Source of the DNA: a virus
Length of the DNA stretch: 64,000 nucleotides
Virus record (IMG/VR): IMGVR_UViG_3300027762_000008
Span: 1 to 64,000 of that record
Direction: 5' to 3' (one strand)
The position numbers and the translations under genes were made by a program. A model generated the notes under the pieces. The model searched no databases, was not told the origin of the DNA, and worked only from the letters and a program-made list of their open reading frames with translations. Shown piece by piece: positions 4,106 to 55,185 of the stretch. Each line of letters starts with the position of its first letter. The first letter of the stretch is position 1.

Positions 4106-4459
4106 TCAATACTCGCTCATCAAACATATGGCAAAGGTTTTCTCATCGACCGGTGCTACAAATAGTTTAACCTCTGGCAAAGGGAAGTCGGTGTAGTGTA
4201 TCTCTTGTCGAAAGATCACCTTCTCTTCGTCGCCGATACCCTCTAGCACACCTTTCCCGTCCTGCACCGTAAGGGTAACCACTGTCATATAGTTGTCTTG
4301 ATACCTCTTGAGATAAGATGCTATGGCATCAATCAACCATGCCGCTCCATTTACTGCGAGGTAACGAGCTCCATCGGTCAGCACAAAGGCAGGTATCCAC
4401 CACCTATGATATGATTCTGTGCCAGTAAACTGTGCAAGGTTCTCTTCTGTGATATTCAT
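4106..4459 (-). CDS. DUF6876-like phage protein
   Basis: 117 residues. The N-terminal LAQFTGTE followed by a Trp/Tyr cluster, then LTDGARYLAVNGAAWLIDAIAS, matches the uncharacterised DUF6876 family of phage accessory proteins. The C-terminal half alternates strands. The family has no assigned activity. It lies in the minus-strand accessory operon with 4-base spacing from the gene upstream. Confidence 0.65.
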   Translation of the reverse strand: MNITEENLAQFTGTESYHRWWIPAFVLTDGARYLAVNGAAWLIDAIASYLKRYQDNYMTVVTLTVQDGKGVLEGIGDEEKVIFRQEIHYTDFPLPEVKLFVAPVDEKTFAICLMSEY

Positions 4460-4462
4460 CTT

Positions 4463-4798
4463 TTAGCCCTTTCCATTCTGCATACGGTCTACAATAGCGT
4501 CGACCATGATAGCTAAGAATCCATCGACGTAAACATCTCTTTCCCATTTCCGGGCTCGTCTAAGACGTTTGTACAGTCCTTCTGTCTTGGCGCAAGCGTT
4601 GGCGGAATTGCAGAATCCTAGGGCTCTCTCATATCCGTAGACGATACGCTGACCCACGGGCTGCCATCCCATAAGGTTAATGGTGTCAAAGTCATCTTTC
4701 CCTGCCTGGGAGAGCTCCTGCAATACTCGGTCAGCTGCGCCAGCTGGGAGAACCGCCGACAATTTTGTTGCAGCTGGGTTCGCTTCTGTGTTTACCAT
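4463..4798 (-). CDS. Hypothetical protein, 111 aa
   Basis: The start at 4798 has AAAGGG 7 bases upstream and overlaps the end of the gene before it by 7 bases. The C-terminal half is strongly basic (LYKRLRRARKWERD) and then helical (GFLAIMVDAIVDRM). The N-terminus is Ala-rich and helical. No family recognised; nucleic-acid binding is possible from the charge but not supported by a motif. Confidence 0.55.
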   Translation of the reverse strand: MVNTEANPAATKLSAVLPAGAADRVLQELSQAGKDDFDTINLMGWQPVGQRIVYGYERALGFCNSANACAKTEGLYKRLRRARKWERDVYVDGFLAIMVDAIVDRMQNGKG

Positions 4799-5064
4799 AC
4801 CTTGACCCTTTCGTATTCTGACACCTTGCAAAGGCTGTCGACCATTTCAGGCGACAATACCCGCTTAGCATCTGTTAGGTTGATCCTTCGGGTAGTCTCT
4901 CTCTCAATCATGATATCGACGTCATGGATAGTAGCCTTATGAGCACCTTCTTTCTGGAGGTATTCCTTGAGTGCCCTTTCATGTTCTTTACGCTCCATTT
5001 CAATAGCTACTGCCTGTTGCCGCAATTCAATGATACGCTTTGCCTTGTGATAAATATCAAACAT
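4792..5064 (-). CDS. Helical hypothetical protein, 90 aa
   Basis: Start at 5064 after GAAGGGAAG. Residues 1-50 form a charged heptad-like helix (KAKRIIELRQQAVAIEMERKE), probably a coiled coil, followed by a short beta segment (ATIHDVDIMIERETTRRINL). The layout resembles small phage host-takeover or recombination-accessory proteins, but nothing specific is recognisable. Confidence 0.55.
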   Translation of the reverse strand: MFDIYHKAKRIIELRQQAVAIEMERKEHERALKEYLQKEGAHKATIHDVDIMIERETTRRINLTDAKRVLSPEMVDSLCKVSEYERVKVW

Positions 5065-5065
5065 C

Positions 5066-5263
5066 TTACGCTTCCCTTCTGTTATCTTTGTTGTATTGAC
5101 TATATGCAACCACGGTGCACTGTATGCTATTGCGTGTGTATCTCTTGTTCTCTTGGAATTCCTTTTCCTTCAAGCAATCGGCCAATGCTTCGGCGTATGT
5201 GTCATATGGTTTACTGAACCAATACCCATAGGAATTCGAGTATCTAATCTGATATTGCGGCAT
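5066..5263 (-). CDS. Small aromatic hypothetical protein, 65 aa
   Basis: Start at 5263 with GAGAGGTG upstream. Tyr/Ser-rich N-terminus (YQIRYSNSYGYWFSKPYDT) followed by a helix (YAEALADCLKEKEF). Such Y..A...A..C.KE patterns occur in small uncharacterised phage proteins. Spaced one base from the next gene. Function unknown. Confidence 0.5.
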   Translation of the reverse strand: MPQYQIRYSNSYGYWFSKPYDTYAEALADCLKEKEFQENKRYTRNSIQCTVVAYSQYNKDNRREA

Positions 5264-6269: not shown

Positions 6270-7043
6270 TTAGCAGTACTCGGTTATGAATTGATTGACC
6301 TTTTGTTTATTCCGCTGTTTGAGCCGGATAGTCCTTCCGAGTTCGAGCTCTAGCTCTGCCATTTTTTGGAATTCTGCGGGATACCGCTTGGCGGATTGTT
6401 GCAGCTCGTGTTTCTTAGCGAACACACAAAACGTGCAGGATAACCTGCTATACCCTTCAGAGTAGATACGGTGCATCGATTGCCCGGCATGGTCAATTTC
6501 GCAGCGCACATCGCATAGGTTAAAGTCAAAGATAGGGTACCAATCCCAGACCGTATGTCCCGGATGTTTTCTCGGTTTTGTCATATCGGAAATCTTGAAT
6601 GGTGGTTTCGCTGCCCGGCTGGGTGACTCTTCTGCCCGGATGCCTACGGCATTGATTGCTCTGGTATATCCGTTCTGTGTCATGTGCTTATGGATGAATT
6701 CTGATATGGGCTCTGTCTTGAGGTACATGGTGCAGAACCGAGCTTTGCCGTCGGGTAGTCTTTTCCATTTGCGGCACAAATCCCAGAATGAGATACCCGG
6801 ATTAACGACATGCAACGGATAACCCAGCGAATTAGCCTCAATCCATTGGTGCATTGGCTCATGCTCCATATCGCCAAGATCACTGTGAACCAGTACAATG
6901 TTACTGGGAATAATACCCTCAATAGCAAGACCATGAAGGTATGCAAGCATGGCTTGGCTATCTTTGCCCCCACTATGGGACACGTAAAGGCAATCGGCTT
7001 GGCGGATTTGCTCTGGTAGTTTTGACCATTCACACTGTGTCAT
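6270..7043 (-). CDS. Phosphoadenosine-phosphosulfate reductase-like enzyme
   Basis: 257 residues. The P-loop-like motif SHSGGKDSQAM (residues about 22-32) identifies the adenine-nucleotide alpha-hydrolase/PAPS reductase superfamily. A conserved VHSDLGDMEH follows, then an RFCTMYLK motif and a CTFCVFAKK pair near the C-terminus. Family members act in sulfate assimilation, tRNA thiolation or DNA phosphorothioation (DndC); phage copies usually lack an assigned substrate. A CxxC close to the C-terminus fits the phage/DndC-like branch better than assimilatory CysH, whose ECGLH motif is absent. Substrate therefore unknown; sulfur chemistry on nucleic acid or nucleotides is an inference. Confidence 0.75.
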   Translation of the reverse strand: MTQCEWSKLPEQIRQADCLYVSHSGGKDSQAMLAYLHGLAIEGIIPSNIVLVHSDLGDMEHEPMHQWIEANSLGYPLHVVNPGISFWDLCRKWKRLPDGKARFCTMYLKTEPISEFIHKHMTQNGYTRAINAVGIRAEESPSRAAKPPFKISDMTKPRKHPGHTVWDWYPIFDFNLCDVRCEIDHAGQSMHRIYSEGYSRLSCTFCVFAKKHELQQSAKRYPAEFQKMAELELELGRTIRLKQRNKQKVNQFITEYC

Positions 7044-7057
7044 GGTTTTTTGTTCCT

Positions 7058-7144
7058 TTACTTAAGTGAGGCTATTGCCAAGGTTAATGCAATCAATCCT
7101 AGCACACCTACTAGAACAGTGAGAGAGAGAAGAGGAAAGAACAT
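7058..7144 (-). CDS. Tiny membrane peptide, 28 aa
   Basis: ATG at 7144 with CGAGGT 5-6 bases upstream, stop at 7058, 14 bases before the PAPS-reductase-like start. The peptide is almost entirely hydrophobic (MFFPLLSLTVLVGVLG...) and ends LK, one predicted transmembrane helix. The frame can be extended upstream to an ATG at about 7183 without an RBS. A small membrane regulator is plausible; chance hydrophobicity cannot be excluded. Confidence 0.4.
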   Translation of the reverse strand: MFFPLLSLTVLVGVLGLIALTLAIASLK

Positions 7145-7564
7145 TGAATACCTCGCTAAGAGAGAAGAGAACCGGGAACACATAAGTAGTACCAGAACCA
7201 AAAAACAGAGTCAATAGAGACTAGCAAAATAATTTGAGAGCCGGAGAATGCAATCAAAACAATAACATCACAAGCGGGTGTAAATAGTTTAGACAGTTAA
7301 GCGTGACAGTGTATACAACTTAGACAGAGAATGTAAAGCAATGATAACACTGTACAATCAGAGAATGTGCAAGATAGTAAACAAGTAAGACGAGTCGTGT
7401 TCATTATTTTGTACATTACCTGGGTAGCTACTGCTATTATGGGAAAAGGGCAACCAGTCTAGTCGACACTGGGGCACCGTGTCAATGTTTTGCCCCATAG
7501 ATATTTTGGATGGGAAAGGCTCTTGGGCATTCATTTTCTTGATAGGAGGCTAATTGGCTCGAGA

Positions 7565-7686
7565 GAGCCACACAGGTGCCAACTGAGTTGTCATGCAAAA
7601 GTATGGTACTGCCAACTGAGTTGGCGCCAACTGAGTTGGCACCTAATCCCCAGGCACTGCCAACTGAGTTGGCACCTGTGTGGCTC
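7565..7686. repeat. Nested palindrome cluster
   Basis: Four copies of the palindrome CCAACT-G-AGTTGG lie at 7579-7591 (last base changed), 7613-7624, 7627-7640 and 7660-7673; copies 2-4 extend to GCCAACTGAGTTGGC. Copies 2 and 3 are directly adjacent. The outermost copies are also flanked by a perfect 16-bp inverted repeat, GAGCCACACAGGTGCC at 7565-7580 and its complement at 7671-7686, so the whole block can fold as one large cruciform containing smaller ones. Confidence 0.8.
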
Positions 7687-7743
7687 CACAGAGCCATGGA
7701 AACCTAGGCAACCCCTTTTAGTCTGGCTGGTCGACCAAGGGAT

Positions 7744-7760
7744 GGATGGCGAAGCCATCC
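7744..7760. other. GGATGGC-GAA-GCCATCC hairpin
   Basis: A perfect 7-bp stem with a 3-base loop, lying between the palindrome cluster and the right-hand TTAGACAGT repeats. No T-tract follows on either strand, so it is not a standard intrinsic terminator. Confidence 0.5.
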
Positions 7761-7857
7761 TGTATAAAGATTGGACACTGTCTAATTATTGGTCACCAAA
7801 GTTTAGACAGTATACTAATCCATTGACACTGTACAATCCTTAGACAGTCAGCCAGGC

Positions 7858-7904
7858 GGGGGAGGGGTGGCCGAAGTGGGGTGTCGACGGTGTGGGGGGG
7901 TGGG
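7858..7904 (+). other. G-tract region with quadruplex potential
   Basis: Five runs of three or more G (G5, G4, G4, G7, G3) within 47 bases on the plus strand. Two loops exceed seven bases, so it only matches relaxed quadruplex definitions. Confidence 0.4.
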
Positions 7905-8007
7905 TCTGAACCCGGTGTGAAACCCCGAGCCAATTTTTCATTTCTGAGCTTGTTAAAAAACCCCGAGGAGCCAATTTTCCAAATTCTCCAATTCAGGGCC
8001 ATTCGGA

Positions 8008-8032
8008 CCCTACCCACCCTACCCCCTCCCCC
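8008..8032 (-). other. Canonical G-quadruplex motif
   Basis: On the minus strand the bases read G5-A-G5-TA-GGG-T-GGG-TA-GGG, five G-tracts with loops of one or two bases, a textbook quadruplex-forming pattern. It lies at the right end of the non-coding island, just downstream of the 8114-8674 gene stop. Confidence 0.5.
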
Positions 8033-8113
8033 ATATACGTAGCTCCTTGGCCCTTAAAATGGAAAAGGAGAAAAAGTCGTTGGCGCAGTTGAATATCTTC
8101 CGGGGCAAGGAGG

Positions 8114-8674
8114 CTATTTCAGCTTAAAAGCCTTCTCGAGCATGGCCTTGAGCTCTGGGCGAAGGCTCGTGAATTCCTCCCCGAGCTTCGCAGACTGGCA
8201 TCTGGCCACTATGTGTTTGGAATCTATAGTGGTGCCAAATTCCCTGTTCTTTACGACACCTTCAGCTATCAAAGCCTCCAATCGAGCCAGATATACTTCC
8301 GGCTTTTCATGGAAATAATCCTCCACTCCGGTGACTGAGGAAATCTCAGTTACGGGGTGTGGGCGACGGGACCATCTCCCATCTTCCCGTTGCTCAGATA
8401 GGTACAGGTGGTAATACGGTGGAAATTCCTTGAACGAGATTCGGCTCACAATGCATCGGAGTCGAATCCCGGTTCGAGGCAAAATGCGCCACACAATCTG
8501 TCCCAGGAAATAAGGACAACAAGACAGAGCTATGTCATGCTCCGTTTGAGCCAGTGAAGCTTGAGTCTCCTTCAGGAGCTGAACCTGTTTCAGTCTCTTC
8601 TGAAACATACCCTCTATCGTCGTGTTCAAATACTTCGGAGTCTTTGGGTCTAATCCCTGATACGGCTGCTGCAT
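8114..8674 (-). CDS. Hypothetical protein, about 186 aa
   Basis: The ATG at 8674 has GGAG 10 bases upstream, but this start makes the gene overlap the previous one by 140 bases in another frame; an in-frame ATG at 8608 after GAGGGT would shorten the overlap. Visible features are an N-terminal helical segment (KRLKQVQLLKETQASL), a basic beta-rich middle (RILPRTGIRLRCIVSRI) and a helical C-terminus (LRPELKAMLEKAFKL). No family recognised. It is the last gene before the non-coding island. Confidence 0.55.
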   Translation of the reverse strand: MQQPYQGLDPKTPKYLNTTIEGMFQKRLKQVQLLKETQASLAQTEHDIALSCCPYFLGQIVWRILPRTGIRLRCIVSRISFKEFPPYYHLYLSEQREDGRWSRRPHPVTEISSVTGVEDYFHEKPEVYLARLEALIAEGVVKNREFGTTIDSKHIVARCQSAKLGEEFTSLRPELKAMLEKAFKLK

Positions 8675-9307: not shown

Positions 9308-9526
9308 ATGAACGCAAAAGGATGGATGGTAGAAACCAAGAAAGTAAGACGGGCAATGATTAAGTTGATCGAAAAATGGAAAGCTGAAGGACGGGAGAAA
9401 GAGGCGGCTGAGCTGACAGAGGCTTTGATTTGTGCTGTCTGGGATGAGGAGTTCGTTCCACAAATCACAGCCCCAACCGATCCTTCTGATAGATACTACT
9501 TCATACGGAATAAGGGCAATGGCTAA
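9308..9526 (+). CDS. Small helical protein, 72 aa
   Basis: ATG with GGAGACAGGT upstream. First gene of the plus-strand regulatory island. Residues 1-45 are helical and strongly charged (KKVRRAMIKLIEKWKAEGREKEAAEL). No known family. It overlaps the XRE-like start by 8 bases, suggesting coupled translation. Confidence 0.6.
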   Translation: MNAKGWMVETKKVRRAMIKLIEKWKAEGREKEAAELTEALICAVWDEEFVPQITAPTDPSDRYYFIRNKGNG

Positions 9527-9764
9527 GAATCATCTTGTCGGAAGGAATACCTCTTCCCCAGAAGAAGTTGTGGAAGTCCTGCGAGTGCTGAAGGACCAAT
9601 ACGGGTTCAACCAGAAGCAATTGGCAGAAGCGGTGGGAGTCAGTCGGGTGACCATGTCTGACTACTATCGCCGCAGGAGCAATCCTTCCCCCTTAATTCT
9701 TGAACGCCTCAAAATGGTGGTGCTTGCATGCGAACAAAGCGAAAAGAAATTGAGCAAGAGTTAG
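9519..9764 (+). CDS. XRE-family helix-turn-helix regulator
   Basis: 81 residues, start at 9519 (AAGGGC upstream). Residues about 20-75 match the XRE/Cro-CI helix-turn-helix: a first helix, then QKQLAEAVGVSRVTMSDYYRRRSNPSP, where Q, A, G-V-S and the recognition helix are in the usual positions. It is single-domain, Cro-sized, with no LexA/CI-type cleavage or dimerisation domain. Transcribed divergently from the leftward operon, it is a natural candidate for a regulator of that region. Known Cro-like proteins repress lytic or lysogenic promoters; the target here is unknown. Confidence 0.8.
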   Translation: MAKNHLVGRNTSSPEEVVEVLRVLKDQYGFNQKQLAEAVGVSRVTMSDYYRRRSNPSPLILERLKMVVLACEQSEKKLSKS

Positions 9765-27151: not shown

Positions 27152-28327
27152 ATGCCAGAGATTAGTACCCCCGCACCCGTATCTGCACCAGCACCTGTAT
27201 CAGCACCTTCTGCTGCACCAGCATCTAGCACCGGATTCAGACAGCCAGAAGGAGCTATGTCTCCGGATGAAATCTTCCGTGAATTCGAATCGAAATTGGA
27301 AGAGCAAGCTCCAGACTTTTCGAAAGCCCGTAAGTATGACGACAGGACTCCAGACGAGATTCTGAGTGCCCTGGACGAGAATGATGGAAATCTCCCTCCT
27401 GAAGAGCCGGAAGATAACATCGATCCGACCACAGGCGTCAGTCCTGAGATGGACGAAGCAGCAACCCCTACTGACGAATTCAAATTCGAATTCGAAGGAG
27501 AGGTTGGCGGGAAGAATTACAAGATCAACTTCAAGAGCCAGGAACAAATCAACAACGCCATCAAGAAGGCGATTGTTGCCGACCAGCTCTATCAGAAGAC
27601 CCGTACGCTTGAGTCTCAGGTTCAGGAGATGGGTCAGTACAAAGAGTTCTCCGACCAGATGGATCACTATCTCGAGAACGATCCAAAGGGGCTTATGGAT
27701 CTCATTATCGAGGATCTCCCCGAGGAAGATGTAAAAGAGTGGCTCATCGCTAAAGCGGAATGGTACGGACAGGATCAGGAAATACGCAAGCAAGCCATGA
27801 TTGCGAAGGAGAACGAACTCCTCCGCAGGAAGATTGCAGCCATCGAAGAGGCGGATAAGAAACTGGACGAGAAGCGGCGTATGGCGGCTGTGGAAGCCGA
27901 TAAGCACGTGCTTCAGTCTTGGGGTTCTGGAGTGATGTCAAAAATGAAATCACGTATTCCAGACTCGTATCATGGTATAATCGAACGTGAACTTAATAAT
28001 TCAGTATTAGAAGCCAAGTATATGCAGAGTAGTGGACAAGACGTTAATGTTAAGACTCTTGATAGGATCTTCGCTCGAAATATGAGGCCCATTCTGGAAC
28101 TCATACAAGAGAAATCCAATGACAGAATCGTAAATACCCAAGTAGCAAAGATTGTGCAGGATAAGAAGAACCAGAACCTCGCAAGAGTTCAGGGGGCAGC
28201 TACTCAGGCTCAGTCTAAGGTAAATCGTAGCAGTACGCTCAGTAAGGAAATTGACGAGAATCCAGCTAAGATGTTCGACCTTCTCCTCAAAGGGATGGAT
28301 GAAGGCCGCATCAGAATGAAGGCATAA
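27152..28327 (+). CDS. Head scaffolding protein
   Basis: 391 residues, RBS AAGGAG. The N-terminus is a Pro/Ala/Ser-rich low-complexity stretch (STPAPVSAPAPVSAPSAAP), then acidic disordered sequence, then helical coiled coils (LLRRKIAAIEEADKKLDEKRRMAAVEADK) and a C-terminal helical region with FDLLLKGMDEGRIRMKA. Acidic, coiled-coil proteins directly ahead of the capsid gene are scaffolds in podoviruses. The upstream 49 bases hold a 5-bp inverted repeat (AGTGA...TCACT) and no obvious promoter. Confidence 0.75.
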   Translation: MPEISTPAPVSAPAPVSAPSAAPASSTGFRQPEGAMSPDEIFREFESKLEEQAPDFSKARKYDDRTPDEILSALDENDGNLPPEEPEDNIDPTTGVSPEMDEAATPTDEFKFEFEGEVGGKNYKINFKSQEQINNAIKKAIVADQLYQKTRTLESQVQEMGQYKEFSDQMDHYLENDPKGLMDLIIEDLPEEDVKEWLIAKAEWYGQDQEIRKQAMIAKENELLRRKIAAIEEADKKLDEKRRMAAVEADKHVLQSWGSGVMSKMKSRIPDSYHGIIERELNNSVLEAKYMQSSGQDVNVKTLDRIFARNMRPILELIQEKSNDRIVNTQVAKIVQDKKNQNLARVQGAATQAQSKVNRSSTLSKEIDENPAKMFDLLLKGMDEGRIRMKA

Positions 28328-28337
28328 GGAGGAAAAA

Positions 28338-30143
28338 ATGCCAGTTATTGCAGAGAACAACGCATTTTCAAATGCGCAGTTTAAGCAGTCAGACCTGCTT
28401 AAGTTTATCCAGGAAAAAGGTTCCAAGACCCTGTGGCGTGTTGTCTCGGGTTTGGACTCGGTCACCAAGAAGGGCGAATGGCCTGGGGGTAAGGAATTCC
28501 GTTACCACATGACCGTTGATGCCGGTGGTGGAGCGTTCAGTGGTTTGAACTCCGTTGGTGGCGTGTTTGCCAACCCTGACCGTGCATACGGAATTCAGGC
28601 GTTCATGGTTCCGAAGTATCAGACGATGACCATGTACTTCGACCGAATCATGGGCAAGTTGACTGACAGCGATGCCAAGGCTTACTTGGGCTCGATGAAG
28701 ATGGAATATGAGCAGAAGACTCTGTTCCAGAAGAGCTTCACGAACCTCCAGCAGATTATGGACGGCACAGGCCGTGTTGCTACTCCTATCGGTCTTGGTG
28801 CATCCAACACCGCAACTGGAAACAGCTTCACGATTGCCAGCCCTTCGACTCTTCTGAAGGTCAAGCTCTCTTCGCTCGACACCGCAACCGGATCTGCCGC
28901 CTACTGTATGGAAGGTATGGTGGTTTCGTTCCTGTATCCGAACTATGACGACGATGACAATGGCACGGTTGCCACCACGAAGGCTGACTGCGTTCCTCGT
29001 TTCGCCGTTCTCGGATTCAAGGCTTCTACGGTTCGCTCGTATTACGATGCTTTCCGTGTTGTCCGTATCAACCAGTCGGCGAACGAGGTTCTTCTCGCTC
29101 CCGCACGTAAGGCCGCTGGAGACAGCGACACCTACACTCCCTATACGACGGTAGACGCCTCGCACATGGTGCAGCAGGGCGGTTCGTCCACGATGTGGTG
29201 CGGCGGAACAGGTACTGTGACTGTCACTCCGTGGCAGGGTCGTACGACTGCTCTCGGTGCTCCGACGGATACCAATGGTCTTACTGGCGGTGCCTCCCTC
29301 GGTCTTGATCACTTCTTCAGCTATGCCGGATTCACCAGCTACGTGGCTGCGGACCATCCGACAGCGACCTTCTTGGTCCTCACCGGGTATATTCCTACGG
29401 GAACCGTTGACTACGGCATCGGCAATTCGGACTTCAGCTCGTTCTCTGGGGCTACCACCACCAATGCTGCAGCGGCTCGTGCGATTCTCGGCCTCGGCTG
29501 GGATGCGAACGTGGACTCTGCCTACGGTGTTACCCAGGACGTGTCGCTTGTGAACCCGTACCTGATGACTGGTATCGAATCGTTGATTTTCAATGATACG
29601 AACCTCGTTCAGGGCGTTCCTCGCTACAGCATCCAGCAGTACCTCCCGACGAAGAAGGACTTGAACTCTCAGGCTCTGACGTTCAACGGACTCTTCGCTG
29701 GTGTGGCTGAGCACTATGTTCGTAACCGTGACAAGGATCCGAACTCGGCAGACGTGATTCAGTGGAACCTTCTCGACATGAACCCGCTGGTGTACACCTC
29801 GCTCCTGTCGCTCTCTGAGGCTGACCGCCGTATCACCGATGACAAGGGCATCCGTGGTACCTCGTGTAAGACCATTCAGGTGGGCAACAAGAAGTTCGAG
29901 CTGAACATGAACTCCTCCATGCGTCTTGACCGTATCGTCGGTATTCCGAAGGATGCGATCCAGATGAAGGGTGGAACTCTTGACCCGGTGGAAGTTGATG
30001 GCCAGCGTCAGTACATGGCTCTCAACAGTTCTGCTCGAAGAGTTAACGCGTATGAGCAGTATTACACCATACAAGGAGAACAGTATGTTGAGAATCTCCG
30101 CGACTGTCTGTTCTTCAGAAACTTTACCATAAGTATACTGTAA
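28338..30143 (+). CDS. Major capsid protein
   Basis: 601 residues with a strong RBS (AAGGAGGAA). Long spine-like N-terminal helices, a central Asp-rich insertion (YPNYDDDDNGTV, about residues 200-210), a Gly/Thr/Ser-rich middle and a C-terminal beta region. HK97-fold capsid proteins are usually 300-500 residues, so this one carries an insertion, most likely the segment of about residues 190-400. High use of G/C-ending codons and long antisense open frames (a codon-bias effect) agree with a highly expressed gene. Gene order (portal, scaffold, capsid) decides the assignment. Confidence 0.85.
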   Translation: MPVIAENNAFSNAQFKQSDLLKFIQEKGSKTLWRVVSGLDSVTKKGEWPGGKEFRYHMTVDAGGGAFSGLNSVGGVFANPDRAYGIQAFMVPKYQTMTMYFDRIMGKLTDSDAKAYLGSMKMEYEQKTLFQKSFTNLQQIMDGTGRVATPIGLGASNTATGNSFTIASPSTLLKVKLSSLDTATGSAAYCMEGMVVSFLYPNYDDDDNGTVATTKADCVPRFAVLGFKASTVRSYYDAFRVVRINQSANEVLLAPARKAAGDSDTYTPYTTVDASHMVQQGGSSTMWCGGTGTVTVTPWQGRTTALGAPTDTNGLTGGASLGLDHFFSYAGFTSYVAADHPTATFLVLTGYIPTGTVDYGIGNSDFSSFSGATTTNAAAARAILGLGWDANVDSAYGVTQDVSLVNPYLMTGIESLIFNDTNLVQGVPRYSIQQYLPTKKDLNSQALTFNGLFAGVAEHYVRNRDKDPNSADVIQWNLLDMNPLVYTSLLSLSEADRRITDDKGIRGTSCKTIQVGNKKFELNMNSSMRLDRIVGIPKDAIQMKGGTLDPVEVDGQRQYMALNSSARRVNAYEQYYTIQGEQYVENLRDCLFFRNFTISIL

Positions 30144-46840: not shown

Positions 46841-48759
46841 TGGCTGAAGGACAACCCAACATCTATGACGAAGTCATCGGCAGACTCACCGGCACCGGGT
46901 CCACTTACGGGTATACCCCGGCAGCGCGGGAAATGGACATGCGGTTACTGGAGGCCCGTCTGAAAGACCCCAATGTTCCGCTTGCTGAGAAAGCCCAGCT
47001 CCGAGCCATTTTAGGATCTGCTAAAAGAGAGTTAGAGGCAGGGAAAATGGCGGCTCCTCCCCCGGGTGCGCCTACTCCCAAGCCTCCTCCGGCCACTCCT
47101 GCTCCCACCCCAAAGCCAGCGAGTACGATTCCTCCGGAGTTTGCTCCTCCTCCAGCTATCCCTGCACCAAAGCCAGCTCCTGCGGCCAGGGTACGCCAAG
47201 CATTGGCTCCTAAACCGACCCCTAAACCGACGCCAATTCCGGCTCCAGAGGAAGAAGTTGCCAAGGCTCCGGCTATTCCGGATCAGATGCCTCCAGACCC
47301 TTTTGAGAAACTTAAAAAACAGGAAGCCCCCGCCGAAAAAGGGACGTGGGTATCCGATCTCAAAGGAAAGTTGGGTGCGACGATACCTTCTATGGAAGGC
47401 TCCGCTCCTGCAGCTCCTGCGGCTGTTCCTACTGCGACTCCTCCCCCTCAAGATGATTTCTTGGGGAATTTCCTCGGTAGGATGAAGGGTGAAACCCTTT
47501 ACCCGAGTCTCAAGCCCGGGCCCAACGGATCGTTCTATGCCAGCGAGCCGAAGTACGGAGCAAAGCAGGAAAAGAAGACCACCGAATCCGAATTCGTGTC
47601 TCCCCCCAAGCTGCAGAGCAGCGTCGAGGGCTCGATGTCCGCCCAGGAAACGGCGGCAGAGAACTACCGCAAAGCCATCGCTGCTTACTACGGCACCGAA
47701 GGAGAGCCCGGAAAGGAATCTCCTTACGCTTCCGACCTCGCCGCCAAGGAGAAATCCCGCAAGGAGGCTTACGACCAATTCCTGTCCCGCATGGACGGGG
47801 CGCAGAAAGCGGAGATGTGGGACAAAATCATCGGGGCTCTGGGCAAGATCACCGCAGGTACTGTGGGGCTCAAAGGACTCAGCGGAGTTCCTGGGCTCCC
47901 CAAGATTCCTGCTGGGCTGAACGTCGCCGGAGCGTACCAGTACACTCCGTCGGTCGACCGTGGGCAGCTCGAGGCGTCCGCTGCCAAGTTGCGTGAGGCG
48001 CAGGAAGGCCGGGCGGATGAGGTATTCCAGATGGCGAAGAGCAAGCGACTGGAACCCCAGCAAGCGGCGTTCTTGGCTTCGCTCCCGCCCGAGCAGCAGA
48101 TGAAGTTCTGGGACATGTACGGCAAGTATGCCGGAGGAAAGACTCGTGCCACGGAAACAGGTACCGGAGAAGAGTTCGGAGTGGGCGGAAGAGTTATCAC
48201 GCCTTCTCAGTACTATCCTAGTGCCAAGTCGAGCAAGAAAGAGGGCGAGGACGTAAAATTCATTCAGGGGAAGATAGACGAGGATAAATTCCAAACTGAT
48301 GTGAATGCTATCCGCACAAATCACACTAAAGTGTCTACCAACTTTCCGCCAAATGCTGCTGGATTGAATGATGCTCAGTATATCAAACAAAGAAGTGGGC
48401 TAGGGGCGGATGCAAAGCAGCCCAGCGTACTTCCAAGACAATTCATAGAAGGCTTGCTTAAGCACTACAAGGCCACGGCTAAGACTCCTGCAGATGCTTA
48501 TAGGGCTACAGATGAAGCAATTCTTAGGATATTGACTGTCACTAATATGAGCCCTGAATCAGAAGAATATGATGCTTGGTATGGAGCGGTAGAAGCAGAA
48601 GAAAAGAAAGCTGGAGGGGTCCAGAGCGGGTTACGGGGATTGGTTCCGACTCATCGTGAGCAACACGGAGGTCGATTCGTTCCTCAGTTCGATCCAAACT
48701 CCAATCCCAATAGCTGGAGAAACCAAAACAAAAACAGCAAACAGCCGCAGACCAAATAG
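46840..48759 (+). CDS. Large internal virion protein with Pro-rich linker, 639 aa
   Basis: The first 80 residues are helical (AAREMDMRLLEARLKDPNVPLAEKAQL), then about 70 residues of Pro/Ala repeats (PPATPAPTPKPASTIPPEFAPPPAIPAPKP), then a helical C-terminal 450 residues. Pro-rich linkers of this length act as stiff spacers in bacterial and phage envelope proteins. A structural or ejection role is inferred; no catalytic motif visible. Confidence 0.55.
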   Translation: MAEGQPNIYDEVIGRLTGTGSTYGYTPAAREMDMRLLEARLKDPNVPLAEKAQLRAILGSAKRELEAGKMAAPPPGAPTPKPPPATPAPTPKPASTIPPEFAPPPAIPAPKPAPAARVRQALAPKPTPKPTPIPAPEEEVAKAPAIPDQMPPDPFEKLKKQEAPAEKGTWVSDLKGKLGATIPSMEGSAPAAPAAVPTATPPPQDDFLGNFLGRMKGETLYPSLKPGPNGSFYASEPKYGAKQEKKTTESEFVSPPKLQSSVEGSMSAQETAAENYRKAIAAYYGTEGEPGKESPYASDLAAKEKSRKEAYDQFLSRMDGAQKAEMWDKIIGALGKITAGTVGLKGLSGVPGLPKIPAGLNVAGAYQYTPSVDRGQLEASAAKLREAQEGRADEVFQMAKSKRLEPQQAAFLASLPPEQQMKFWDMYGKYAGGKTRATETGTGEEFGVGGRVITPSQYYPSAKSSKKEGEDVKFIQGKIDEDKFQTDVNAIRTNHTKVSTNFPPNAAGLNDAQYIKQRSGLGADAKQPSVLPRQFIEGLLKHYKATAKTPADAYRATDEAILRILTVTNMSPESEEYDAWYGAVEAEEKKAGGVQSGLRGLVPTHREQHGGRFVPQFDPNSNPNSWRNQNKNSKQPQTK

Positions 48760-54700: not shown

Positions 54701-55185
54701 AAGCCTTGGCAAATGATCGACTCGAGGCAGACGAAACAGCGTTCTTTGCTCTCAACAACGCCGCCATCGGCGGATACACCGGAAACTGGTCCGCTGCCGC
54801 CGCCATGCTCGGACTCAAGGGCGAGCTCGGAAGGATTGCAGATGCTAATGCAGAGGAAACCAAGAAACGCCTCATGCAGGAATATGAATGGCTGGGCGAG
54901 TCCCCTGAATCCGCCGAGGTGTTCGCCAATCTGACCTTTAAACTCGCCAACTGGATGGACGAGGAAGACCTCATAACCATGTACGGGCACCAGACCTACG
55001 GAGAGAAGGTCAAATACCAAGACGTCATCGACAGATTCCTCAAGGCTCAGAAGGATTACGTCCGCCCGGAGAAGATGGACAAGCAGCAGGAGCTGTCGGA
55101 CGTCGAAGCGTTAATGTTGAAAGATACGGCCAGGGAAAGATTCCGAAGACAGATTCTGAACCGGCTTAAAGCGTCTGAGAAATAA
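48769..55185 (+). CDS. Giant internal virion protein, 2138 aa
   Basis: RBS ATAGGATCCCACA. Charged and mainly helical over its whole length, with hydrophobic segments at about residues 281-297 (ALVANFIPVLGYLKWLG), 328-342, 363-383 (GLSAVFGGGLTGALGAVGVAL) and 1767-1790 (YLTLIPGLGIPTALFSWQFG). Large proteins of this kind in podoviruses are ejected into the host to form the DNA conduit. I looked for RNA polymerase motifs (as in N4 virion RNAP), for SLT muramidase and for ADP-ribosyltransferase signatures and saw none. Its stop overlaps the convergent helicase gene by 20 bases. Confidence 0.65.
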   Translation: MADYLDEEKPIGYQYPEELESAIGPITPIETKEEREARLAAKRSQTAHFVPISPESATKIKQYWDEKGGDGYFNRPTTYLEEKFQGLVGKMFNKDYAPPVIPKKLDEWMDTSGDTPRVDYQALRLVGIPPEIKHGAMADVAQNVYGVAKKIALSGNDIKEKPDDTFPIRLGKTLTQTVDQFAGVFGSSVYEHLKSGGRFDDIYLPSVLDDEERTEIQNALSAGKPGAILRGGITVSLRPFQGAQQANISDVYDHVAKEKIKFVWDQINDATDTALTKDAALVANFIPVLGYLKWLGKAGEASKAVKAVSAVANPLTAATQALKGGKSLGLPALVGLSAAEAALMQRRHLSESAQQEELAGRGLSAVFGGGLTGALGAVGVALNKGSKAIAARRAETQNRAAQEVGKLVAELPPEQVHNIAMGLEDFPEPKVDFPAQQKAEGFAVPARPVVPVAADPQYVKEVKAGLIVHALDKEKQLSADPRIIQQVFTSLPHNKKLQDLATIRRQQAYGENPQQAKMRLALLNVLNQTEDSVAEGQTLIKKAMDKQLELPPAHQESIQSNVNDLDAISDLLDDNTFAKITAGTDQEFLAAVRAVAPNRAKAVELQLGRISDADLMQREFVDIFRALPPDKVTDVAAPRNSVSHRFLDSIHNWWDKRVKSQEDIDAVLDKSNKLGISVENQKVSSVQQLDSVITKIQKQTPVTGEGADIGHSTMLDSLASLRDDMEAAARNGTTIDPLHSTILAKDAKNFMDAGELEAIQTNITKFNELQEQRLLVHDQAAQILVDKVYMNRMKMGQKKDKISTTDVILQRLTSGKSADEIYEGLNQYFTKYARDMKIDPANLRDVTGDFKIVADSMAGGSSIPDAVINRFIVNSGRFIESVRPSSSGRLRRFGRALEQYNREAHWLDTVSDMIELGYDDPVKFAAQIVPRLGHIAEHARSSSLLRRFELLKAAGHDIYMKAMREIDLPETAKSQMYEAQAGGLTAKLRLAMNPNFVFRTESHIQNVFKATKEWDIALFKAMNDALAEAGITPNKEFLLGHFLTPHNNFDKSGYLLKLGIDAIGAEKWAKIWNRRKNFSNSKFSAIANFVSNTEYIMGTLNEELGRGLLHEEQAFAGGIKTATESISNNFKVEFSLLLQKLTREWAEPEFKYGFNKLQGSKGILAVNGFFYGFDNNTRKMINTPLGEWHRHAFIRNNAYTAQQIQRGDKVGFIRDTQKFLRNFKEYMDDDALRKQTASALWDYFYDAGGGPNNRTVMLDAQAWKSIWEYIQFQSVTLNKAYTLAAEAVANNNEKMKSLGYNIAMPDWRQYYVYEPSKNRYDLHEFTDRLFRDMDTTRWFGSSMRGQLEKAERIVLDGPSYENLAHPAQIIYDYVHHNLMSAHTIHSRTHLENFGMLIRDQGYINLSDWVMDLAQNKLRGSGKNEMFDGRTIAEQLENWLVTKRLTRAVTLLAQPAAVVLGVTRIANALNSPKSIIKNIVQASLESWIVRGPVKGLKTSMGTVYNTVKNYFWQLNRPLPNKPLPFESLRREVLEADARGEFISGRDISPGTAEAIYTAKRGLSDNYDRARLYSVQLMTSTVGEVPIPRRKGGLTRLALGARLAEDAMEDWVRKAMKERGETSISMAHLQLGGRIHDAALVHLYRDGTQKAYEYLMKEMPSMRKNLVWGFVTEMERGLKQGNPNFVTLDFLYTFHALQNGRFSPTAAPQLVRSPYIRSTLPQLFMFANAKALRPFRYLDLIRNIRGNVWEKSTSFMFKTRGMPSQMQKRMYLTLIPGLGIPTALFSWQFGLGSMVPESVADKMRENTEPGSFLRRWVEGSGYPLTEWGPLPGFFADTRSKTVPVGMTAALQNVAMNYKKVGEAVQSAWYHTMRSFGEVNDAWEDYLQGVPGVNTKLERLVSKRRAIMEIEDVNVREAEEEKINTEMLELQKHFEDTVLPKALDYIFANVPALDFVDSVGKPLSFLKVINTPFYRAHLEREALANDRLEADETAFFALNNAAIGGYTGNWSAAAAMLGLKGELGRIADANAEETKKRLMQEYEWLGESPESAEVFANLTFKLANWMDEEDLITMYGHQTYGEKVKYQDVIDRFLKAQKDYVRPEKMDKQQELSDVEALMLKDTARERFRRQILNRLKASEK

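Follow-up and report, generated by a model that had tools for sequence, protein, structure and literature searches.

A nested, dyad-symmetric palindrome cluster in a repeat-rich non-coding island, probably an origin or a control region of initiation in a poorly known phage group

The 64,000-nucleotide window analysed here, part of the 70,791-bp IMG/VR record of a phage (G000), contains a repeat-rich non-coding island with a 142-bp dyad-symmetric element at its core (Table 1), and this region probably serves as an origin or controls initiation in a phage group of which little is known. That the island is the place where replication of the phage is initiated is a reading to which we would give about even chances, and it is put forward because distant relatives carry repeat-rich, differently spelled DNA at the same place. 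The origins of most uncultured phages are not known, since sequence similarity cannot find them. What is kept across the relatives described here is place and layout, namely a strong inverted repeat, the strongest G-tract, direct repeats and one marker gene, and if the island is a true origin, this would provide a route to predicting where replication starts in a phage group that has no cultured member, as well as a case for studying the joint change of initiator and site.

Anatomy and statistical strength of the element

The initial annotation had described four 13-base palindromes, two of them directly adjacent, inside a perfect 16-bp inverted repeat in non-coding DNA, and this nested arrangement is confirmed and is in fact stronger than first stated. 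The 13-base core CCAACTGAGTTGG occurs exactly at 7612-7624, 7627-7639 and 7660-7672, whereas the copy at 7579-7591 has one mismatch, its last base being T, and three rather than four of the palindromes are thus perfect. The TGCCAACTGAGTTGGCA box accordingly occurs four times in the element, in one copy with one base of the core altered, at centre spacings of 33/15/33 bp, and the extended forms of the two central boxes do abut. The bracketing repeat is perfect over 20 bp rather than 16, and extends with mismatches to 7555-7593 and 7658-7696 (39 nt, 85%). All parts of the element share a single axis at 7625.5, and this axis, the hairpins at both ends, the absence of any further box copy from the 70.8-kb genome and the existence of a second repeat family in the island had been missed. 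Two ORFs overlie the element, neither of them with a Pfam match, and the element is not recognisably coding.

Table 1. Positions in the window of the island, its parts and its bordering genes
Feature	Position	Strand	Remark
PAPS-reductase-like gene	6270-7043	leftward	left border of island
Repeat-rich non-coding island, candidate initiation region	7044-8113		1,070 bp, without recognisable gene
Most AT-rich 300 bp of genome	7141-7440		63% A+T; adjoins element; relatives vary
Second-family left cluster	7289-7358		TTAGACAG at 7289 and 7320; ACACTGTACAAT at 7347
Sigma-70-like promoter match TTGACA-18-TAGACT	7456-7485	-	consensus match only; toward leftward early genes
Dyad-symmetric element	7555-7696		142 bp
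Left end hairpin TGGCTC-GAGA-GAGCCA	7555-7570
Left outer arm	7565-7584	+	perfect 20-bp inverted repeat
Palindromic box 1, TGCCAACTGAGTTGTCA	7577-7593		imperfect
Palindromic box 2, TGCCAACTGAGTTGGC	7610-7625
Palindromic box 3, GCCAACTGAGTTGGCA	7626-7641		abuts box 2
Palindromic box 4, TGCCAACTGAGTTGGCA	7658-7674
Right outer arm	7667-7686	-	perfect 20-bp inverted repeat
Right end hairpin TGGCTC-CACA-GAGCCA	7681-7696
Second-family right cluster	7774-7848		TTAGACAG at 7778 (minus), 7803 and 7840; ACACTGTACAAT at 7826
C-rich tract (G-rich on +)	7858-7906	-	includes genome's second-ranked G/C-biased 24-mer
Direct repeat pair AAACCCCGAGCCAATTTTTC / AAACCCCGAGGAGCCAATTTTC	7920-7979		between G- and C-rich tracts; identified by reading the sequence
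Most G-rich 24-mer of genome, 18 G	8008-8031	-	coding strand of gene 8114-8674
Gene without assigned function, marker gene	8114-8674	-	orthologue borders island in G009, G010, G026
Cro/CI-type HTH protein	9432-9764	+	candidate binder in operator reading

Among the inverted repeats of the genome the element ranks first, scoring 23 against 14 for the next independent one. The best inverted repeats in 500 dinucleotide shuffles of the island had a mean score of 8.0 and a maximum of 14, and 60 shuffles of the genome likewise did not exceed 15. Furthermore, it is the most symmetric 142-bp window of the genome with a dyad match of 49/71 (runner-up 38), and it accommodates five non-overlapping hairpins, the genome mean being 0.17 per 142 bp.

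Searches of phage records revealed no DNA similar to the island region, no annotated phage record matches the structural protein encoded at 28338-30143, and no close relatives were found in IMG/VR by way of the two flanking genes. The box 15-mer is present in 55 IMG/VR contigs, but these occurrences are read as chance, since each is a single copy and the contexts are mostly unrelated. The notion that the palindrome is a widespread mobile repeat of the REP or MITE type was likewise rejected, there being no copy elsewhere in the genome and only single matches, in unrelated contexts, in IMG/VR. As a separate observation, GCCAACTCAGTTGGC is present in two exact copies on a contig of a Pseudomonadota MAG (1229-1269), 11 bp apart and near an apparent ExbD-like coding end, and these are the sole copies in that MAG genome.

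The island and the gene content of the phage

Repeat density per 1 kb, taken over the genome, peaks in the island (z 5.0), which also has all genome copies (5/5) of the second repeat family, TTAGACAG, and these flank the dyad on both sides. Like iteron origins, the island thus has repeated short sites, here the boxes and TTAGACAG, that are confined to one non-coding region, and an AT-rich region adjoins them in G000 (7141-7440). No terminator-like site, in the sense of a short GC-rich hairpin ahead of a run of T, is found within 7000-8200. The island region has no match to an Rfam family, and although the DNA that separates the G-rich from the C-rich tract has a tRNA-like look, a tRNA search was negative.

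GC skew, which had been suggested as a check on the origin, goes from -0.09 in the leftward genes to about 0 at the island, and its minimum lies near the island in G000 (6116). In two relatives, G009 (68411) and G010, the minimum is not near the island, and because these disagree, GC skew was dropped as a general proof of an origin.

The termini of the G000 record share 12 bp (a GTTGTCCCGGTT-type repeat) and an ORF, weakly HU-like, spans the joined ends, for which reasons the map is probably circular and complete, though the record is classed as linear. HU-like proteins at the termini were not retained as candidates, their matches being only marginal (E 0.07 and 0.21). The gene set includes a family A polymerase, a helicase, an exonuclease, a RuvC-like resolvase and an SF3-type helicase-primase (DUF5906) of 490 aa, encoded on the minus strand at genome positions 65184-66656. 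The gene of the latter adjoins that of the RuvC-like Holliday junction resolvase, and a similar pair is found in G009 and G010. The SF3-type protein has SF3-like motifs and primase-family matches as well as orthologues in G009, G010 and G016, and none was detected in a further relative, G026. About 12 kb separate its gene from the element, so that the two are not directly adjacent, and its structure model (mean pLDDT 40) is too poor to show a C-terminal winged-helix DNA-binding domain. The model of the 8114-8674 protein, which has no Pfam or PHROG match, is likewise too poor. DnaA boxes are found nowhere in G000.

Islands in distant relatives

Related IMG/VR contigs were reached by way of the terminase and the structural protein at 28338-30143, and orthologues of the 8114-8674 protein, at 24-36% identity, are found in G009 (70.9 kb), G010 (63.6 kb) and G026 (75.2 kb). 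Directly 3' of the orthologous gene, all three have a non-coding, repeat-rich island of 1.1-1.4 kb, and the island sequences of G000 and these relatives are mutually unrelated. In a scan of whole genomes for inverted repeats with a gap of up to 700 bp, the strongest one was in the island in G000, G009 (54874-55037) and G010 (47071-47613). The arms enclose about 70-110 bp in G000 and G009, the repeat of the latter bracketing smaller copies of its own half-sites (TTAAAACG), and in G010 the perfect 20-bp arms are 503 bp apart. For G026 the findings had been predicted beforehand, and the island was indeed found at the expected place, but the prediction that it would contain the strongest inverted repeat failed, this one lying elsewhere (score 15 at 28210); a 27-bp palindrome within the island is tied second with a score of 13. 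In G016 the repeat-densest window (63401) includes the most C-rich 24-mer of the genome, but the top inverted repeat is elsewhere. The more distant G022 and G023, in which no 8114-8674 orthologue is detectable, have their strongest inverted repeat in non-coding gaps. Lack of conservation of the palindromes in related phages had been named as a refutation, and the outcome is divided: their letters are not conserved, but the place and the richness in repeats are, as is a strong inverted repeat in the majority of relatives, and the layout thus largely persists while the letters change.

The genome's most G-rich 24-mer is found in the island in 4/4 genomes (G000, G009, G010 and G026), always on the coding strand of the 8114-8674 orthologue and respectively 83, 461, 121 and 52 nt past the end of that gene. 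A strong C-rich tract follows 150-280 nt after the G-tract in G000, G010 and G026, a weaker one is present in G009, and direct repeats lie between the G- and C-rich tracts in these islands. Shuffling of the islands matched the G-tract values in 0, 3, 0 and 0 of 300 trials for G000, G009, G010 and G026, and no other non-coding gap in these genomes attains them; the feature was spotted while reading the islands and was not pre-registered.

Some further observations concern individual relatives. G010 has three perfect tandem families at 47223-47592, CACGCTTGGAACCGAT (16 bp), GGGTTAGTTTAGCAGA (16 bp) and a 47-bp unit, all inside the perfect 20-bp inverted repeat. Its replication-gene block (28-38 kb, corresponding to 55-67 kb of G000) is inverted relative to G000 and G009, and despite this the island still adjoins the marker gene. 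In G022 (L161) a non-coding gap at 4245-5213 has a 50-bp direct repeat at each end, both copies being followed by a TTGAC promoter-like sequence, and its RNA-like middle matches no Rfam family above threshold. In G023 (L166, 15644-16437) GTAAGTG and CACTTAC form arrays, with a period of 8 bp, that are turned toward one another at a distance of about 90-170 bp.

A candidate origin and its alternatives

An origin seems the most economical explanation of the region because of its private symmetric boxes, the adjoining AT-rich DNA, the conserved place and the phage's own replication genes. Further points in its favour are that the best inverted repeat and the peak of repeat density are found here, that the strongest inverted repeat is likewise in the island of G009 and G010 and in non-coding gaps of G022 and G023, that all four islands have their genome's most G-rich 24-mer, and that GC skew changes at the island. 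The palindromic boxes, and perhaps the TTAGACAG boxes too, would then be sites for a dimeric or oligomeric phage initiator, whose assembly on the dyad may open the neighbouring AT-rich DNA or extrude hairpins, and replication proteins encoded by the phage itself could then load. As initiator the SF3 protein is a candidate and no more, since it is undetected in G026 and its DNA-binding domain gave no usable model. The origin reading is furthermore in poor agreement with the strongest inverted repeat lying outside the island in G026 and G016, with a GC-skew minimum that G009 and G010 do not share, with the absence of DnaA boxes and with an SF3 gene that is both some 12 kb away and undetected in one relative, and it should also be mentioned that repeats collect in non-coding DNA generally. 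The initial annotation had listed an origin, a binding array and a recombination or packaging site as possible roles, and this interpretation is half right: the origin fits best, the binding array is either compatible with it or its main rival, and the other two are unsupported.

That the boxes instead form an operator array, binding a dimeric regulator such as the Cro/CI-type HTH protein and controlling the leftward early operon from 7043, and perhaps transcription through 8114-8674, is unlikely in our view, but it is the strongest of the alternatives and does not exclude an origin. Phage origins often overlap control regions, and the island may indeed carry an early promoter and double as an early control region. 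The palindromes are perfect and of operator size, the HTH gene is only 1.8 kb away with a weak HTH match at the equivalent place in G009, and the best promoter match of the island (7485-7456, minus) faces the early genes. However, this match is 70 bp from the element, and the boxes are spread 70-240 bp from it rather than over it, G010 has no recognisable HTH gene at the place in question, and operators leave the large bracketing repeats, the G-tract and the layout differences among relatives, from 27 bp to 500 bp, without explanation.

A more elaborate form of the origin reading, in which this phage lineage has a composite origin of its own that evolves fast, appears improbable as formulated; it is suggested by the G-tract on the transcript strand. 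The transcript of gene 8114-8674 would here enter the genome's strongest G-tract and stay hybridised as an R-loop, the R-loop would prime the phage's family A polymerase in the manner of ColE1, T4 or mitochondria, and the adjacent palindromic dyad would assemble the helicase, all sequence words turning over while the layout is kept. The host polymerase used by ColE1 is also of family A.

It is a rather remote prospect that the island is transcribed leftward and that the palindromes form an RNA hairpin acting as a regulatory, processing or decoy element. The 8114-8674 gene is directed into the island, the G- and C-rich tracts could pair as RNA, and the element folds as RNA with -90 kcal/mol (z -9.3), but it folds equally strongly as DNA, since the folding follows from the inverted repeats. 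Furthermore, no Rfam family is matched, the RNA sequence is not conserved between relatives, and the 20-bp arms of G010 around 503 bp would make a poor RNA hairpin. We consider it just as doubtful that the island is free of constraint and that its repeats and palindromes have grown neutrally by slippage and template switching. The unrelated island sequences, the recent look of the tandem copies in G010 and G023 and the partial failure of the G026 prediction speak for such growth, but four diverged genomes of a compact phage have all retained more than 1 kb at this position, the G-tract is absent from their other non-coding gaps, and the 33/15/33 symmetry and two private families of G000 are more ordered than slippage would give. 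A site for recombination, inversion, partition or packaging is the least probable explanation, since the invertible-segment size of the G010 repeat and the RuvC-like resolvase gene are outweighed by the facts that no site-specific recombinase, transposase or ParA/ParB-like family is among the listed matches to 50 G000 proteins (the PHROG families covered being the 25 commonest of 37), that the terminase genes are 15 kb from the element and that the G000 and G009 arms enclose so little DNA.

Comparison with known systems

Among the closest parallels to the candidate origin are replicons with SF3 proteins, which act as initiators at the P4 and SV40 origins (as described in PMC4234260). In the plasmid pRN1 a stem-loop of about 100 bp, conserved in structure and not in sequence, is necessary and, together with the replication operon, sufficient for replication, and the same stem-loop origin has been predicted for phages BPP-1 and BIP-1 (PMC4234260). 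The likeness of the island to this is partial: a large potential stem-loop is found in non-coding DNA of a replicon with an SF3-type helicase-primase, and the top inverted repeat is in the syntenic island, of unrelated sequence, in G000, G009 and G010, but not in G026, where no SF3 protein was detected either. However, the pRN1 and BIP-1 stem-loops are directly 3' of the replication gene (PMC4234260), whereas the neighbour here is 8114-8674, with the SF3 gene at a distance, and smaller palindromes are nested inside the element. Phage P4 has an origin with iterons to which its alpha protein binds (according to PMC4234260); an SF3 helicase-type replication protein and repeated origin sites are common to both, but the box is here a palindrome within a dyad, and the poor SF3 model does not allow a winged-helix domain to be recognised.

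Repeated semi-palindromic boxes in the non-coding region of a phage-related element are also found at the PLE satellite origin, where RepA binds to such iterons and replication requires them (PMC7145576, PMC8263062). The PLE initiator is however of the RepA_N type, the PLE iterons form three direct repeats, each about 30 bp long, as opposed to one dyad, and binding and need for replication have been shown for PLE, while the element described here is known from its sequence. The Cluster O mycobacteriophages share a 17-bp palindromic phage box without a known binder, but their dyad repeat occurs in more than 30 copies across the genome (PMC4351075) rather than four times in one 142-bp element. 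The hrs of baculoviruses are palindrome-rich repeats that can act as replication origins and are also able to bind a transcription activator (PMC6669502), and the island could similarly have a dual role in replication and control, although these viruses are unrelated and their hrs occur in several places with a 30-bp imperfect palindrome as the unit. Finally, R-loop-primed origins are known from ColE1, T4 and the mitochondrial leading-strand origin (reviewed in PMC4412123), and the phage resembles these in encoding a family A polymerase and in having a G-rich tract in the transcript strand near its candidate origin, the transcript and the RNA-DNA hybrid being proposed for the phage island.
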